From the NCBI GenBank assembly GCA_027622315.1, contig JAQBZW010000007.1, positions 1 to 33,055 of the forward strand: a stretch of DNA of 33,055 bases. Reading direction: 5' to 3'. The notes below the pieces were generated by a model, which made no database searches, had not been told where the DNA came from, and worked only from the letters and a program-made list of their open reading frames with translations. Shown here piece by piece: positions 756 to 30,285 of this stretch (positions are counted from its first letter, which is position 1; the number at the start of each line of letters is the position of its first letter). A program made the position numbers and the translations under genes. Origin of the DNA: Chloroflexota bacterium. Its GTDB lineage: Bacteria > Chloroflexota > Dehalococcoidia > UBA2979.

Positions 756-1847
756 CTAGCTGGTTTTTTTACTCTGCTTTACTGCGACCGGTGCCCACAC
801 CGCGGCCCATGTCGCAGCGCGCGACGCAGGCGGGAGTGACGGCGCATCGATCATGCGCTCACGTGCCTCGTGCTCGAGCGCCGCGACCGCGGTCGCGAAG
901 CGGGCACACGCTTCGCGCAGCGCCTCTTCCGCGTCTACATCCACCTCGCGCGCCAGCCGCACGACGCTCCAGAGCAGGCCGCCCAGCGCATCGGCGTCCG
1001 GCGACGGCGGCAGCGCGGCCGCGAGCGCTGCGACCTGGCCGTGTGCGGAAGCGGGCGGATCGGTCACGCCCGCGCGCAGGGCTCGGCCGATCAGCGCGGA
1101 CGCTCGCTGCAGCGCGGGCGCCGCGCGAGGGACAGCATCGAGGGCGCCCTCCGCCGCCTCGGCGCCGGGGGCCTCGTCGCGCTCCGCTCGTTCCGCAGCC
1201 TTGATCTGATCCCAGCGTTCGAGCAACGCCTCCTGCGAACCGGCCTGCTCGTCCCCGAAGACGTGGGGATGACGGCGCACGAACTTCGCAGACGCGTGTG
1301 CCACGACGTCCTCGACGGTGAACGCGCCGGCTTCCTGAGCGAGCGCCGCCTGCATGAAGAGGTGCGCGAGTACATCGCCGATCTCCTCCTCGAGCGCGCG
1401 CATGTCCCCGCGATCGATCGCCTCCACGAGCTCGTACGCCTCTTCGAGAAAGTACCGACGGAGCGTCTCGTGGGTTTGCTCACGGTCCCATGGACAGCCG
1501 TCGGGCCCGTAGAGGCGCTCCATCACGCCGCGCAGGCCGGCGAGCGCATGGCCGTCTTGCTCGGGCGCGAGCGCCGGCAACAACCACGCGGCGGCGGCGG
1601 CGGGGAGCTCCGCGACCATCACCGTCGTGGCCACGCCGCCGATCACGGTGCGCGCCTCGGCACGCGGCGGGTAGCGGGCCGTGACCAGCGGTCGTGCGCT
1701 CGCGAACTGCTCGCGGAGCACGATCAGCGGTCGCTGCGCGTCGAAGCGGGGATACCGGGGGTCGAACGTCTGTAGCTCGTGCGGCTCGAGCCGGAGCGCG
1801 GCGATCACGGCGATCAGCGGGGATGTGCCCGGCGGGCGGTCAGCCAT
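756..1847 (-). CDS. mazG: MazG-family nucleoside triphosphate pyrophosphohydrolase
   Basis: A 363-aa protein that should hydrolyse (d)NTPs to NMP and pyrophosphate, cleaning the nucleotide pool. The MazG domain spans about 104-220: CPWD at 118-121, then the metal-binding E135-E136, E139, E155 and D158 of the EExxE...ExxD signature, then an RRHPHVF segment at 191-197. Residues 1-100 are not a complete tetrapyrrole methylase domain, though they may be a remnant of the linker seen in YabN-type fusions. A second, degenerate helical half (about 240-345) lacks the acidic cluster, as in two-domain MazG proteins. I chose the ATG at 1847 because a TATACT -10 box on the minus strand ends 6 nt before it; the longer reading frame upstream is Arg-rich and overlaps the divergent gene. 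The mRNA is then leaderless. A run of seven A's encodes the last lysines. Confidence 0.9.
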   Translation of the reverse strand: MADRPPGTSPLIAVIAALRLEPHELQTFDPRYPRFDAQRPLIVLREQFASARPLVTARYPPRAEARTVIGGVATTVMVAELPAAAAAWLLPALAPEQDGHALAGLRGVMERLYGPDGCPWDREQTHETLRRYFLEEAYELVEAIDRGDMRALEEEIGDVLAHLFMQAALAQEAGAFTVEDVVAHASAKFVRRHPHVFGDEQAGSQEALLERWDQIKAAERAERDEAPGAEAAEGALDAVPRAAPALQRASALIGRALRAGVTDPPASAHGQVAALAAALPPSPDADALGGLLWSVVRLAREVDVDAEEALREACARFATAVAALEHEARERMIDAPSLPPASRAATWAAVWAPVAVKQSKKTS

Positions 1848-1853
1848 GGCCCG

Positions 1854-1861
1854 AGTATAAT
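1854..1861. promoter_or_regulatory. Overlapping divergent -10 boxes of mazG and the DUF1461 gene
   Basis: On the plus strand TATAAT occupies 1856-1861 and is followed by 6 nt and the GTG at 1868. On the minus strand TATACT occupies 1859-1854 and is followed by 6 nt and the mazG ATG at 1847. The two hexamers share four base pairs, and the arrangement is symmetric to the base. Neither side has a recognisable -35 or a TG extended -10. With a start site about 6-7 nt after the -10, both transcripts would begin at or next to the start codon, so both would be leaderless and initiation would be mutually exclusive. Confidence 0.7.
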
Positions 1862-1867
1862 CGCGAC

Positions 1868-2605
1868 GTGCTCGCACTCCGCTGGTTCGCCGCCGCCCTC
1901 TTCGTGGTTTCGATCCCCGTGTTTCTCGTCCTGAGCAACGTGCGCATCGCCACGACCGACAGCCATGTCTACGACTACGCGTTCTCCCAGTACGACGTGC
2001 CCGCACGCACGGGCATCGATCGTCCCGAACTCGATCGGGCGGCGCGCGAGATCGTGGACTACTTCCAAACGAGCGAGCGCGGTTCGCTCCTCGACATCCG
2101 CGTCACGGTGAACGACGTGCAGGAGCCGCTCTTCAGCGAGCGCGAGGTGCTGCACATGAGCGACGTGCGCGACCTCTTCCGGCTCGTCTTCCGCATCCAC
2201 GAGCTCGCGTTCGTGTACGCCGCCGGCTACATCGCGGCCGTGTTCCTGTGGAGCCGCGAGCGCTCGATGCTGCGCCTCGCACGTCAGGTGGCGACGGCCG
2301 GCGCCCTCACGGCGGGCCTGTTCGCCATCGCGGCGGTCGCTGTGCTGGTGGGCTTCGACACGCTGTTCACGGAGTTCCACCTGTTGTCGTTCTCGAACGA
2401 CTTCTGGCAGCTGGACCCGGCACGGGACCATCTGATCCAAATGTTCCCGGAAGGGTTCTGGTTCGACGTCACGCTCGGCGTCGGTGTGATGTCAATCCTC
2501 GAGGGCGGCGCCCTGACGGCGCTCGGGCTGGGCTACCTCACGTGGCTCGATCGCGACCGTGCGCGCTGGCGCGCGGGCTGGCCGCTGCCGGTCCCGCGCT
2601 GGTAA
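1868..2605 (+). CDS. TIGR01906/DUF1461 integral membrane protein
   Basis: A 245-aa membrane protein of unknown function. I see four hydrophobic segments: about 5-23, 108-128, 139-162 and 205-227. Between the first two is an extracytoplasmic stretch rich in Asp/Glu. The family-typical segment FHLLSF...W.LDP...LIQMFP...W.D sits before the last membrane span, and this identifies TIGR01906. The start is a GTG at 1868, placed directly after the first predicted transcribed base and immediately before the first membrane segment. Earlier in-frame codons would run antisense through mazG and give an Arg-rich extension. The gene is alone on the plus strand and ends before two hairpins (2651-2706). Its family occurs in Firmicutes, Chloroflexota and Actinobacteria, but I know of no tested role. 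Confidence 0.85.
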   Translation: MLALRWFAAALFVVSIPVFLVLSNVRIATTDSHVYDYAFSQYDVPARTGIDRPELDRAAREIVDYFQTSERGSLLDIRVTVNDVQEPLFSEREVLHMSDVRDLFRLVFRIHELAFVYAAGYIAAVFLWSRERSMLRLARQVATAGALTAGLFAIAAVAVLVGFDTLFTEFHLLSFSNDFWQLDPARDHLIQMFPEGFWFDVTLGVGVMSILEGGALTALGLGYLTWLDRDRARWRAGWPLPVPRW

Positions 2606-17686: not shown

Positions 17687-18523
17687 CTAGGCGTCCGAGC
17701 GCGTCGAGGTCGCCGTCAGGCGCTTCGCGACGTCGGCGGTGAGATCGAGTGCCGCCGCGGGCATGCCTGCGGCGTCTATCAGCTGTCCGCCGGTGGCGCG
17801 CACGCGTGCGGCCGCGAAGGCAGCGAGGACGGCAACGAGGAACGGCGCCTCGACCGCCATCTGCGCCTCGCGAATGCGTGCGAACAGCGGCATCGCTTCC
17901 ACTGCGGCGTCGTCCGACTCGTCGATCTCGCCGTCGAGCTCTGACCACAGCGGATCGAACTCAGCGCCCACGATCGGGTAGCGGGTGAAGGCCGCGACCG
18001 GCCCGGCGTCCACCTGCGGGATCGCGAGGTGCACCATCACCCCGCTCTCGGGGGCGCGCGTGCGGATCAGCTCGCGAATGACCTCGCGCCAGGTGCCGAC
18101 CGGGCCTCCGGGAAGCGCCGGGTGCAGGTTGAGCAGCGGATGCTGTGCCACGAACTGCGGGGTGAGGATGAGCATGTAGCCGGCAAGCACGCCGATATCG
18201 AAGGGGTAGGGCGCGAGTCGTGCCCCGAGTTCCGTATCGAAGGCGGCGCGCCATTCCGGCAGCGGCGCACCGGCGCGCGATCGCTCGCCGCCGTGCTCAC
18301 CGCGATAGCGCACGGACGAAAGCGTCACGAGCGGTAGGGCGCGGTCTCGGATGGTCGCAAAGAACTGGTCGGTCACCGGATCTTCACCGGGTTCACGGTT
18401 CGAGCAGACGCAGGCGAAGTCCGCGTCGAGGGAGCCGTCGTCGACGGCGGCCCGGACCGCCTCGAACATGCCGCGTGAGCCGGCGCCACGAGCGGTCGTG
18501 AACCATCCGATGCGGAGCGTCAC
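17687..18523 (-). CDS. Formyltransferase family protein, PurN-like
   Basis: A 278-aa protein of the formyl-THF-dependent transferase fold. The catalytic triad is visible: N132 and H134 in LLNLHPALPGG, and D172 in QVDAGP, matching N106, H108 and D144 of E. coli PurN. H165 and the strand VMVHLA precede the Asp. Residues 1-60 give a Rossmann-like start (RIGWFTTARGAGSRGMF), though the loop differs from the SGxGSN of PurN. It is about 70 residues longer than E. coli PurN (212 aa), with an acidic insert near 195-212. It may be the glycinamide ribonucleotide transformylase of purine synthesis, or a relative with another amine substrate; no other pur genes are near. The GTG start overlaps the xseB stop by 4 bp. 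Confidence 0.75.
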   Translation of the reverse strand: MTLRIGWFTTARGAGSRGMFEAVRAAVDDGSLDADFACVCSNREPGEDPVTDQFFATIRDRALPLVTLSSVRYRGEHGGERSRAGAPLPEWRAAFDTELGARLAPYPFDIGVLAGYMLILTPQFVAQHPLLNLHPALPGGPVGTWREVIRELIRTRAPESGVMVHLAIPQVDAGPVAAFTRYPIVGAEFDPLWSELDGEIDESDDAAVEAMPLFARIREAQMAVEAPFLVAVLAAFAAARVRATGGQLIDAAGMPAAALDLTADVAKRLTATSTRSDA

Positions 18524-18801
18524 CGCCCGGCGTCTCCGCCCGCATCGCCCGCGCGCTGGCGCAGCGTCTCGATGCGCTGTTCGACGTTCGTGAGCAGATC
18601 CTGGCAGCGCGCGGCGAGGCGCATGCCCTCCTCGTACAGATCGACGGACCGTTCGAGCGACAGCCCGCCGGCTTCGAGCTGGTTCGAGATCTCCTCGAGC
18701 CGCTCGTACGCGGCCTCGAAGGTCTCGGGCGCGGAGGAATCATCGTCTGCGGACGGCGGGTCATTGCCGGCGGCGGAGGGCTTGGTGGAGCGAGTAGCCA
18801 T
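18520..18801 (-). CDS. xseB: Exodeoxyribonuclease VII small subunit
   Basis: A 93-aa XseB, the helical small subunit that wraps the XseA C-terminal region to form exonuclease VII. The family pattern FEAAYERLEEISNQLEAGGLSLERSVDLYEEG-like is read at about 28-56 and continues as MRLAARCQDLL. The acidic N-terminus is typical in variable length. Either GTG at 18804 (4-bp GTGA overlap with xseA) or ATG at 18801 (TGATG, 1-bp overlap) could start it; I prefer the ATG. It is between xseA and the formyltransferase gene and overlaps both, so the three are coupled. Confidence 0.93.
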   Translation of the reverse strand: MATRSTKPSAAGNDPPSADDDSSAPETFEAAYERLEEISNQLEAGGLSLERSVDLYEEGMRLAARCQDLLTNVEQRIETLRQRAGDAGGDAGR

Positions 18802-20003
18802 CACGGCGACTCTACACGCGCGGGACGGGCACCGTCCCGCCAGCGGATTTCGACGCGATCGCCCGGCGCGACCTCGGCGGCGGACGTGAGCAGTCGACCC
18901 CCGGCACCGGAGACGAGCGCGTAGCCACGATCGAGCGTGGCGAGCGGGGAGAGCGCCTGCAGCCGGCTGAGCGTGTGCGTCGTGCTCTGACGCGCACGCG
19001 TGGTCGCGGCGGCCGCCGCCGCGCGCATGCGGTCCGAGTGGATCACCAGCTCCCGCCGGAGCCGTGCGACGTCCGGCAGTGCATGTGCGAAGGCGCGCTG
19101 GTGGCGCGCCACGCGTTCGCGCGCGGCATCGAGGTCACGCGCGAGGCGCTGGTGATGCCGTGCACGCATGGAGGCGATTGCCTGCATGACCTCCACCCGG
19201 TCCGGCGCCACGAGTTCGGCGGCGGCGGATGGTGTGGGCGCACGCATGTCCGCGACGAGGTCTGCAAGCGAGATGTCGGTCTCGTGTCCGACCGCCGAGA
19301 CGACGGGCACCGGGCAGCCGAAGACGGCGCGAACCACCGGCTCCTCGTTGAACGCCCAGAGGTCCTCGGCGGAACCACCGCCGCGGCCGACGATCAGGAC
19401 ATCCGGCCACACTTCCGGGCGCTCGCGGGGCGCGATCGCACGGATCGCCTCCGCGATCGCGACCGCCGCATCGTCGCCCTGCACGGGCGTCGGCAGGAAG
19501 ACGATCGAGGCGAGCGGCCAGCGGCGCGCGAGCACCGTCTGAATGTCGTGAAACGCCGCACCCTGTGCCGAAGTGACCACGCCGATGCGGCGGGGGAAGC
19601 GCGGGAGCGGCCGCTTGCGCTCCGGGGCGAACAGCCCCTCCGCCTCGAAGCGTGCCTTCCGGCGCTCGTATTCCGCTGCGAGCGCACCCACCCCGGCGGG
19701 CTGCACGAAGTCCACGATCATCTGCAGTTCGCCGCGCTGCTCGTAGACGGAGATCCCGCCGTGCACGATCAGCGAGGCGCCCTGCTCCATGCGCTCGCGC
19801 TGTCCCATGTTCTTCTGGCGGAAGAACACGCAGCGGATCGCGCCGCCCGAGTCCTTGAGCGTGAAGTACATGTGCCCGGACGACGCGAGCGTGAGGTTGG
19901 ACACCTCGCCGCCGACCCAGATGTCGGAGAGCTGCCGGTCCTGCTCGACGAGCACCTTCAGGTACCGCAGCAGCTGCCAGACCGGTCGAACCTCAGGTGG
20001 CAT
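18801..20003 (-). CDS. xseA: Exodeoxyribonuclease VII large subunit
   Basis: A 400-aa XseA, the catalytic subunit that degrades single-stranded DNA to oligonucleotides. An N-terminal OB-fold (about 5-100) includes VGGEVSNLTLASSGHMYFTLKD. The catalytic domain has RIGVVTSAQGAAFHDI, the VGRGGGSAEDLWAFNEE block and AVGHETDISLADLVADMRAPTPSAAAE, all hallmarks. A long coiled coil (about 255-340) follows, then the short end motif LATLDRGYALV. The ATG at 20003 begins 2 nt after the efp stop and gives the normal N-terminus; a longer frame upstream runs antisense-like through efp. It works with xseB, which it overlaps, in repair and recombination. Confidence 0.96.
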   Translation of the reverse strand: MPPEVRPVWQLLRYLKVLVEQDRQLSDIWVGGEVSNLTLASSGHMYFTLKDSGGAIRCVFFRQKNMGQRERMEQGASLIVHGGISVYEQRGELQMIVDFVQPAGVGALAAEYERRKARFEAEGLFAPERKRPLPRFPRRIGVVTSAQGAAFHDIQTVLARRWPLASIVFLPTPVQGDDAAVAIAEAIRAIAPRERPEVWPDVLIVGRGGGSAEDLWAFNEEPVVRAVFGCPVPVVSAVGHETDISLADLVADMRAPTPSAAAELVAPDRVEVMQAIASMRARHHQRLARDLDAARERVARHQRAFAHALPDVARLRRELVIHSDRMRAAAAAATTRARQSTTHTLSRLQALSPLATLDRGYALVSGAGGRLLTSAAEVAPGDRVEIRWRDGARPARVESP

Positions 20004-26217: not shown

Positions 26218-27396
26218 TCACTCCTGCCTCGTCGTCGCGCGCGGGGTGGGGTGCGCTGCGTACTCGGCGAGGGGCTCACGGACTCGAACGTAATGCATGG
26301 CCCCGACTTCGCGGACGAGGCCCTTCAATTCCAGCATGGCGAGCGTACCGGAGACGGTGGCTGCCGCCAAACCGCTGCGGCGGGCCACATCGTCGACGTG
26401 CCGCGGTTCACGACTGAGCGCGCCCATCAACGCGCGCTCGCGATCGTTCTCCGGCGGCGCCGCTCGGCCGAAGTCGAGCTGCGCCCCGATCATCGTCAGG
26501 TTGAGCGCTTCGAGTATGTCCTCCGCACCGGTGACCGGCGCCGCGCCGTCGCGCAAGAGCGCAAGCGGACCGCGCGACTGGGGGGAGAAGATCGAACCGG
26601 GGACGACAAACACGTCGCGTCCCTGCTCGAGCGCGAACTTCGCCGTGATCATCGCGCCGGAGGTGTGATCGCCCTCTACCACCAGCGTCCCGAGCGTGAG
26701 CCCGGAGAGAATGCGATTGCGCCGCGGGAAGAACTCGGCCCGCGGTTTCGTGCCGAGCGGGTAGTCGCTGATCAGGGCGCCGCGCTCCACGATCTCGTCC
26801 GCGAGACGCCGATTCTCCGGCGGATAGACGGTGTCGAGCCCGCTCGCGAACACGGCGACCGTGCGACCGCCGGCCTCGAGCGCCGCGCGGTGCGCAATCG
26901 TATCGACGCCGCGGGCGAGTCCCGACACGACCGTCACGCGGTTGGCGGCGAGGCCGCGCGCGAGCTCGCCGGTGGCCTGTCGCCCGTACGCGGTGGCGCG
27001 GCGCGTGCCCACGATCGCCACGCTCCACTCGTCGTCCGCCGTCCACGTGCCGCGGACGTACAGCACGGGCGGGGCGTCATCGATCGCGCGCAGGCGCTCG
27101 GGGTACTCCGGTGCCGGGCGTGCGAGCGCGCGGATGCCGGCGCGCTCCAGTCGCTCCAGCTCGGCGAACGGATCGCAATCGGCGCGCGCCTGGACGACGG
27201 CGCCGGCTGAGCGCTCATCGAGCCCGGCGGCCGTGAGCTCGCCGCGCGTGGCGGTCCAGGCGTCCGCGAGCGCGGGGAACGCCCGCTCGAGAATCGCGAA
27301 ACGCACGCTGCCGAGCCGGTGCACGCGATGGAGCGCGACCCGATAGGCGAGATCGTCGCTCGCCGGGAGTGGGGGCGGCGGGGCACAACCGGGCAT
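26218..27396 (-). CDS. dprA: DNA-processing protein DprA
   Basis: A 392-aa protein that binds incoming single-stranded DNA and loads RecA in natural transformation. An N-terminal SAM/HhH-like region (15-85) precedes the extended Rossmann domain (about 95-310), with [43 protein letters not shown] and the key [21 protein letters not shown], then [25 protein letters not shown]-terminal winged helix (about 325-380) matches DprA_WH. The ATG is at 27396. No other competence genes are in this window, and dprA is kept in many non-transformable bacteria, so its presence alone does not show competence. It begins a set with topA 9 nt downstream. Confidence 0.95.
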
Positions 27397-28860: not shown

Positions 28861-30285
28861 TTAGTCCCGGGCCGCAGGCCCCCCTTCTGGCGGGTGTTCC
28901 CGCGCCGGCATGCCCATGACCAGGGCGCCGGCGGGCACATCACGCGTCACGACCGCCCCCGCGGCCGTGCGAGCGCCCGCCCCAATCTCGACCGGCGCCA
29001 CGAGCACCGAGTCGCTGCCGATGAATGCACCGTCGCCGATCCGCGTGCGGTGCTTGGTCTCGCCGTCGTAGTTGGCCGTGATCGCGCCCGCACCCACGTT
29101 CACGCCGATGCCCACATCCGCGTCGCCGATGTATGAGAAGTGGCCGACCGCGGTACGCGCGCCGATGCGCGAGGCCTTCACTTCCGCGTAGTTGCCGAGG
29201 TGCACATCGTGCTCGAGCGTCGATCCCGGCCGCACATGGCAGTAGGGACCAACGGTGACGCCCTCCGCCAACGTCGAACCCTCGAGCGTGGAGCCACCGA
29301 TCTCGCAGCGATCGCCGATCGTCATGTCGCGGAGCACGGCGTTCGGCCCGATTCGACAGCCGCTGCCGATGCGGGTCTCGCCGATCAGGTGGCATCCCGG
29401 GAAGACGGTCGTATCCGGCGCGATCTGGACTCCTGCGTCGATGTATGTGGCGGCGGGATCGACCAGCGTCACGCCCGATTCCATGAGCGCACGACGGATG
29501 CGATCGCGCATCGCCTGCTCGACCTTTGCCAGCTCGACGCGCGTGTTGACCTGCTGAACCTCGATCGCCTCCTGAACCTGGTAGGGGTGCACACCCCCGT
29601 CACGCACGGCGGCGCCGATCAGGTCGGTGAGATAGCGCTCTCCACTCGCCCCAGGCGTGAGCGCGGCGAGCGCCGGCCAGAGCCACGCAGCTTCCGCCGC
29701 GTACAGGCCACCGTTCACCTCGGGTTCGCCACGGGTCGCGGCGTCGGCGTCCTGTTCCTCGACGATGCCGTCGACGCGACCGTTGCGCCGCACCACGCGT
29801 CCGTAACCGGTGGGATCGTCCAGGTAGGCGGTGAGGAAGCTCAGCACGGCGCCGCTGCCCAGGTGCCGCTCACTCATCTCGCGCAGCGTGCGCACGGAGA
29901 GCAGCGGCAGGTCGGCGTTGAGGATGAGCACATGCGAGGATTCGCCGGCCGCATCCCGCGCGGCGAGTGCCGCGTGCCCGGTGCCGAGCGGTTGATCCTG
30001 GACGGCGATGCGAATGTCGCGCCCGACCGCGTCCGCGATCTGGTCGCGGGCGTCGCCCGCGACGACGACGATGTGCCCGAAGCCGGCCGCATGGAGAGTG
30101 TTCGTTACCAGTCGCACCATCGGGATGCCGGCCACGGGATGGAGGACCTTCGGCAGCGCGGAACGCATGCGCGTGCCACGGCCGGCGGCAAGCACCACGG
30201 CTGCCCAGCCGTCGAAGGGCCGGGCGGCACCTGCCGCCTCGCCGCTCGTATGGGCATTGGGACTGTGGGAGGGGGAGGCGCTCAT
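28861..30285 (-). CDS. glmU: Bifunctional GlcNAc-1-P uridyltransferase / GlcN-1-P acetyltransferase
   Basis: A 474-aa GlmU that acetylates glucosamine-1-phosphate and then makes UDP-GlcNAc, the precursor of peptidoglycan. The N-terminal pyrophosphorylase has the signature LAAGRGTRMRSALPKVLHP, then GTGHAALAAR and NADLPLL. From about 270 a left-handed beta-helix of hexapeptide repeats follows, with GNYAEVKASRIG, HFSYIGDADVG, GAITANYDGETKHRTRIGDGAFIGS. The extra N-terminal 20 residues (Ser/Pro/Ala-rich) are not conserved. I prefer the ATG at 30285: a TATTGT -10 box ends 7 nt before it, so the message would be leaderless; an upstream ATG at 30315 would lie ahead of that promoter. glmS lies at the other end of the same collinear run. 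Confidence 0.95.
   Translation of the reverse strand: MSASPSHSPNAHTSGEAAGAARPFDGWAAVVLAAGRGTRMRSALPKVLHPVAGIPMVRLVTNTLHAAGFGHIVVVAGDARDQIADAVGRDIRIAVQDQPLGTGHAALAARDAAGESSHVLILNADLPLLSVRTLREMSERHLGSGAVLSFLTAYLDDPTGYGRVVRRNGRVDGIVEEQDADAATRGEPEVNGGLYAAEAAWLWPALAALTPGASGERYLTDLIGAAVRDGGVHPYQVQEAIEVQQVNTRVELAKVEQAMRDRIRRALMESGVTLVDPAATYIDAGVQIAPDTTVFPGCHLIGETRIGSGCRIGPNAVLRDMTIGDRCEIGGSTLEGSTLAEGVTVGPYCHVRPGSTLEHDVHLGNYAEVKASRIGARTAVGHFSYIGDADVGIGVNVGAGAITANYDGETKHRTRIGDGAFIGSDSVLVAPVEIGAGARTAAGAVVTRDVPAGALVMGMPAREHPPEGGPAARD

Follow-up and report, generated by a model that had tools for sequence, protein, structure and literature searches.

A putative −10 element shared by divergent, predicted leaderless mazG and lit-family genes in Dehalococcoidia

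The genes mazG and lit of an uncultured member of the Dehalococcoidia lie head to head in the window (the whole stretch of DNA analysed, 33,055 nucleotides), and a single 8-base box in the short gap between them appears to launch both in opposite directions, with RNAs that would start at the start codons. Judged from sequence and comparative evidence, the arrangement is probably a symmetric −10 bidirectional promoter with both genes leaderless, compact in form and with little regulatory effect. The features of the window concerned are the following.

756-1847, minus strand: mazG, MazG-family NTP pyrophosphohydrolase, 363 aa, ATG start (TIGR00444 above cut-off)
1868-2605, plus strand: lit-family membrane protein, 245 aa, GTG start (PF07314, TIGR01906; formerly DUF1461)
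1823-1825, plus strand: in-frame ATG within mazG, a rejected alternative start of lit (favoured by coding score)
1845-1847 and 1868-1870: start codons flanking the gap, CAT (mazG ATG, minus strand) and GTG (lit, plus strand)
1854-1861, both readings: putative shared near-palindromic −10 element AGTATAAT (direct reading; core kept in family relatives)
1856-1861, plus strand: putative −10 box TATAAT facing lit (direct reading, genome-wide spacing peak, lit homologues)
1854-1859, minus strand: putative −10 box TATACT facing mazG (direct reading, genome-wide spacing peak, mazG homologues)
1862-1867, plus strand: spacer CGCGAC, 6 nt, from box to lit start (direct reading)
1848-1853, minus strand: spacer CGGGCC, 6 nt, from box to mazG start (direct reading)

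Direct reading placed 20 bp between the ATG at 1847 (minus strand) and the GTG at 1868 (plus strand), and TATA at 1856-1859 was common to TATAAT on the plus strand and TATACT on the minus strand. The first-pass annotation had described two −10 boxes sharing four base pairs, each 6 nt from a start codon, in a 20-bp gap, and its coordinates were all confirmed. It had also called the promoter perfectly symmetric, which holds for the spacing (6/6) but not for the box; AGTATAAT is palindromic at seven of eight bases in this genome, and the perfect palindrome AGTATACT occurs in several relatives. From the box positions, transcription is predicted to start at 1847 (minus strand) and 1868 (plus strand), 21 bp apart. 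A search for a −35 element at a 15-19 bp spacer gave a best match of 2/6 on both sides, equal to background, in agreement with the earlier statement that neither side has one. No extended −10 was found on either side of the gap, and RNA folding at the two predicted 5′ ends showed nothing remarkable.

The lit product passed the Pfam model PF07314 (now named Lit) with 119 bits against a gathering cut-off of 24, and scored 42.7 bits against the NCBIfam Lit equivalog, far under the cut-off of 400. As the equivalog cut-off was missed, the protein was filed as a PF07314/TIGR01906 member, and the Lit enzyme name is tentative. The catalytic residues of Lit are His85, His153, and Phe157 (PMC8275575). 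In a weak match to the solved Lit structure 7b0o (E 3.2e-9), the equivalents of His153 (H171), Phe157 (F175), and Trp162 were retained; the alignment did not include the His85 region, and H96 is only a candidate equivalent. Named relatives of the protein were metagenome-assembled genomes of Dehalococcoidia and other Chloroflexi. The start at ATG 1823 was rejected on homology and on relatives without an upstream ATG or GTG: none is present in G001, G013, and G029, and G013 has a stop six codons upstream. GTG 1868 is thus probably the real lit start, and the ATG of the coding-score caller wrong.

Judged from the spacing of −10-like motifs, this genome has a genuine class of leaderless starts. 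The genome sample comprised 877 kb (28%), window included, in which an in-house hexamer caller called 883 genes with approximate starts. Among 826 genes, TANNNT before the start peaked at 6 nt (34 genes) and 7 nt (21 genes), with 2-10 at other spacings. Six nucleotides between the box and a start codon at +1 give the usual −7 to +1 geometry, which makes these genes leaderless candidates; after background subtraction they amount to ~5% of genes, and about 4.7% of Chloroflexi genes have been reported to carry a leaderless TANNNT signal (PMC3160421). As a class, their promoters showed no −35 above background and their starts were 40 ATG and 12 GTG, so the missing −35 is not peculiar to the mazG-lit pair. 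Further candidates in the window, all at 7-nt spacing, were the genes for the exonuclease VII small subunit (18520-18804), DprA (26218-27396), and a nucleotidyltransferase with hexapeptide repeats (28861-30285). A search for a stand-alone CarD gave a single CarD-domain match, which falls in an open frame of 1159 aa, a length like that of Mfd. Across the family, all 28 tabulated lit genes had the box at 6 nt (23) or 7 nt (5), whether or not mazG was nearby, and 18 of 27 mazG genes had an in-frame box at 6 or 7 nt; an extra mazG match in G039 was probably spurious. TATACT directly abuts the lit ATG in G021 (locus L085), where an in-frame ATA lies 6 nt past TATACT and the lit start codon is uncertain.

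TATA is self-complementary, which makes a second reading of such a box cheap: given TATAAT, one upstream A is enough. The informative part is therefore not the symmetry of the box but the 6-nt distance of each start codon from it. The 877 kb contained 129 divergent pairs, of which 26 had at least one leaderless start and two had both; only mazG-lit had a shared box. The other doubly leaderless pair in this sample (L154, 9267-9374) has separate boxes, 106 bp start to start. The pattern CATN6AGTATAMTN6RTG, with 6/6 spacing, occurred in five of 44 family genomes (G000, G001, G013, G029, and G030), and its reversed control in none. A 7/6 version added G006, G020, and G038, all eight being at mazG-lit. 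In GC-rich family members the symmetric pattern was found only there (five with 6/6, three with 7/6); the remaining 7/6 matches fell in genera g5, g7, and g9. G031, of the AT-rich genus g7, retains AGTATACT at mazG-lit with 6/5 spacing. The core AGTATA[AC]T was constant while the GC-rich spacers diverged between family genomes. The proposal of a shared −10 element without a −35 serving two predicted leaderless starts is thereby strengthened, by the genome-wide spacing signal and by conservation in several genera; compared across relatives, as the first-pass annotation had suggested, the gap showed both boxes and both spacings kept at mazG-lit in several genera. Such pairs were not in general excess: none was found for symmetric leaderless pairs in the genome's own 877 kb, for the 21-bp type across 393 genomes of the class (59 rows by hand count, 47 control matches), or for the 18-bp type within the family (61, control 76).

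Sharing of the box is patchy. The genes are still divergent, each with its own box, in g8 (G008 and G032), g12 (G042 and G012), and g14 (G014 and G028), and in these split genomes both boxes and both spacings are retained, one per gene. In G035, G027, and G040 of g12 another stretch intervenes between the two genes, and in g2 and others they lie apart, with lit still leaderless as judged by its box. The mazG-side boxes of split or separated genomes lack the T needed for a reading towards lit (AGTATAGG, AGTATACC, and AGTATACG), which is partly true by definition. At least six changes between the shared and not-shared states, counted in either direction, were required on the Lit tree, which was built quickly and has several weak nodes as well as long branches of AT-rich members. 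Relatives in which the motif is missing and the genes are not neighbours had been named beforehand as evidence against the promoter; those found here speak against the sharing only, as individual leaderless boxes persist in them. Outside the family, divergent mazG-lit adjacency is still common, but a −35 of the TTGACA type precedes several of the lit genes; on this evidence the compact form appears to be derived. Two side observations were made in g12. The ORF divergent from mazG in G035 and G027 (loci L164 and L165) is apparently leaderless too (TACGCT, 6 nt, ATG), with separate boxes. In G012, the first five codons of mazG are followed by a TGA (L168, near 2512) where the sister G042 has TCA; a nonsense change, a rearranged start, or an assembly error are the options.

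Genus g6 offers a different view of the mazG side. Here the ATG is out of the mazG frame and opens an ORF of 11, 11, and 7 codons in G006, G020, and G030, respectively; its stop codon TGA and the start of mazG overlap in GTGA, GTGA, and ATGA (sites: L178, 2508-2532; L179, 1427-1453; L184, 2319-2343). Read from the sequence, this is an apparent leaderless upstream ORF translationally coupled to mazG, and an mRNA start anywhere but at the mazG-side ATG would make it difficult to explain. Two of the three genomes are close relatives, so independent cases are few. RTGA-coupled short ORFs ride on leaderless mRNAs in mycobacteria (PMC4633059); the g6 case resembles them in being a 7-11 codon leaderless ORF ending in RTGA at mazG, but it belongs to another phylum and is a prediction from three genomes. 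In the genome of the window, RTGA-coupled leaderless short ORFs showed no clear enrichment (three at 7 nt, none at 6 nt, 0-5 at other spacings).

An independent case was found in another family of the class. In G249, AGTATAAT with 6/6 spacing joins divergent relA/spoT (TIGR00691, GTG start) and hisS (TIGR00442, ATG start) at L205, 1501-1526. Three sisters in its genus retain the relA TATAAT at 6 nt and lack the symmetric A, and in them hisS is divergent at wider gaps (~87 bp in G346). This is consistent with a deletion that put hisS onto the relA promoter in G249. L205 was the only class locus fetched with two convincing genes; at L190, two ORFs of more than 60 codons look like chance.

Under the proposed mechanism, RNA polymerase with the housekeeping sigma factor would engage the −35-less AGTATAAT in either orientation. 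Rightward, initiation would fall on G1868, the first base of the lit GTG, and leftward on the A of the mazG ATG at 1847; both mRNAs would be leaderless, and translation would begin by leaderless initiation. Only one polymerase could occupy the site at any time, and with low activity expected this should have little regulatory effect. Promoter strength may be low, as no −35, extended −10, or stand-alone CarD was found. Sharing would be the most compact layout for a divergent pair of leaderless genes; several genera would have kept it or formed it anew, and others would have given it up. The actual start sites, the use in both directions, and the slight competition are parts of this explanation that we infer. 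A bolder formulation, in which one 8-bp box, or 26 bp with both start codons, holds all start signals, arose independently at mazG-lit and relA/spoT-hisS at least, and sets the output ratio by polymerase orientation, is possible but, as a whole, more doubtful than probable.

Symmetric −10 bidirectional promoters are established in bacteria, in E. coli (Warman et al.; PMC12825309, PMC10268837), and the mazG-lit element resembles them in having a short −10 on both strands and no need of a −35. Divergent start sites of such promoters lie within 7-25 bp, with favoured spacings in E. coli of 18, 10, and 23 bp and some variation (PMC12825309); the predicted 21 bp falls within that range and is not among the favoured spacings, which are a preference and not a requirement. 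What differs is that both genes here code for proteins and that their mRNAs are predicted to be leaderless. The known leaderless genes that have TANNNT ~12 bp ahead of the start codon (PMC3160421) are alike in box, distance, and share of genes, but were treated singly, whereas here two appear to depend on one box. The EcoRV restriction-modification system (PMC5333194) and M. tuberculosis lysG-lysE (PMC5648196) have divergent promoters with overlapping polymerase sites, as here, and the second lysE promoter is leaderless, as is predicted for both genes here. However, these systems involve control by a C protein or LysG, not one −10 common to two leaderless genes, and lysG-lysE, which extends over 108 bp, has −35 motifs, unlike mazG-lit. 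No description of one shared −10 serving two leaderless genes was found in the open-access literature; we regard the element as a leaderless-leaderless variant of the known symmetric −10 promoter, and its novelty as modest.

The first-pass annotation had proposed that, since polymerase can serve only one gene at a time, the two genes would be expressed in a mutually exclusive or coordinated way. Exclusion at the level of binding is retained, but mutually exclusive expression does not follow from it. A selected regulatory switch, by which mutual exclusion of polymerases at the box would link mazG and lit expression inversely or hold their ratio constant, would fit the presence of the shared box in several genera, and in E. 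coli an activated direction can repress its opposite (PMC12825309). Yet relatives repeatedly have two separate boxes (G008, G032, G042, G012, G014, and G028) or have separated genes and a lit that remains leaderless, and the state has changed at least six times on the Lit tree; nor do we know of anything that connects lipoprotein transacylation functionally with nucleotide clean-up. At E. coli bidirectional promoters, polymerase competition is absent at basal activity and appears only under strong one-way activation (PMC12825309). Together, the patchy conservation and the lack of basal competition disfavour the switch, which we judge unlikely, and the mazG-lit box looks like an economical promoter instead.

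The box might also be used by one gene only, the start of the other lying within the adjacent gene; lit, for instance, could begin at ATG 1823 under a promoter further upstream. The coding score for that ATG and the cheapness of a second TATA reading lend this some appeal, but close relatives have no upstream ATG or GTG and each box keeps its spacing after splitting, which makes such one-sided use improbable. That the resemblance arose by chance in an AT-poor genome and marks no promoter at all is very improbable: similar patterns do occur at background level in AT-rich relatives, but the genome-wide 6/7-nt peak, the box on all 28 lit homologues, the empty reversed-pattern control in 44 genomes, and a core kept while its spacers diverged speak against it, and the conservation at mazG-lit already contradicts it.

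If the preferred reading of one economical promoter for two leaderless genes is true, symmetric −10 promoters and widespread leaderless mRNAs would be joined here in a near-smallest possible divergent promoter, in a phylum, the Chloroflexi, for which we found little transcript-start literature. The leaderless box would also give a handle for start-codon correction in the annotation of Dehalococcoidia, the lit start probably being miscalled here, and the family would provide a natural series of shared, split, and separated boxes for the study of polymerase competition.
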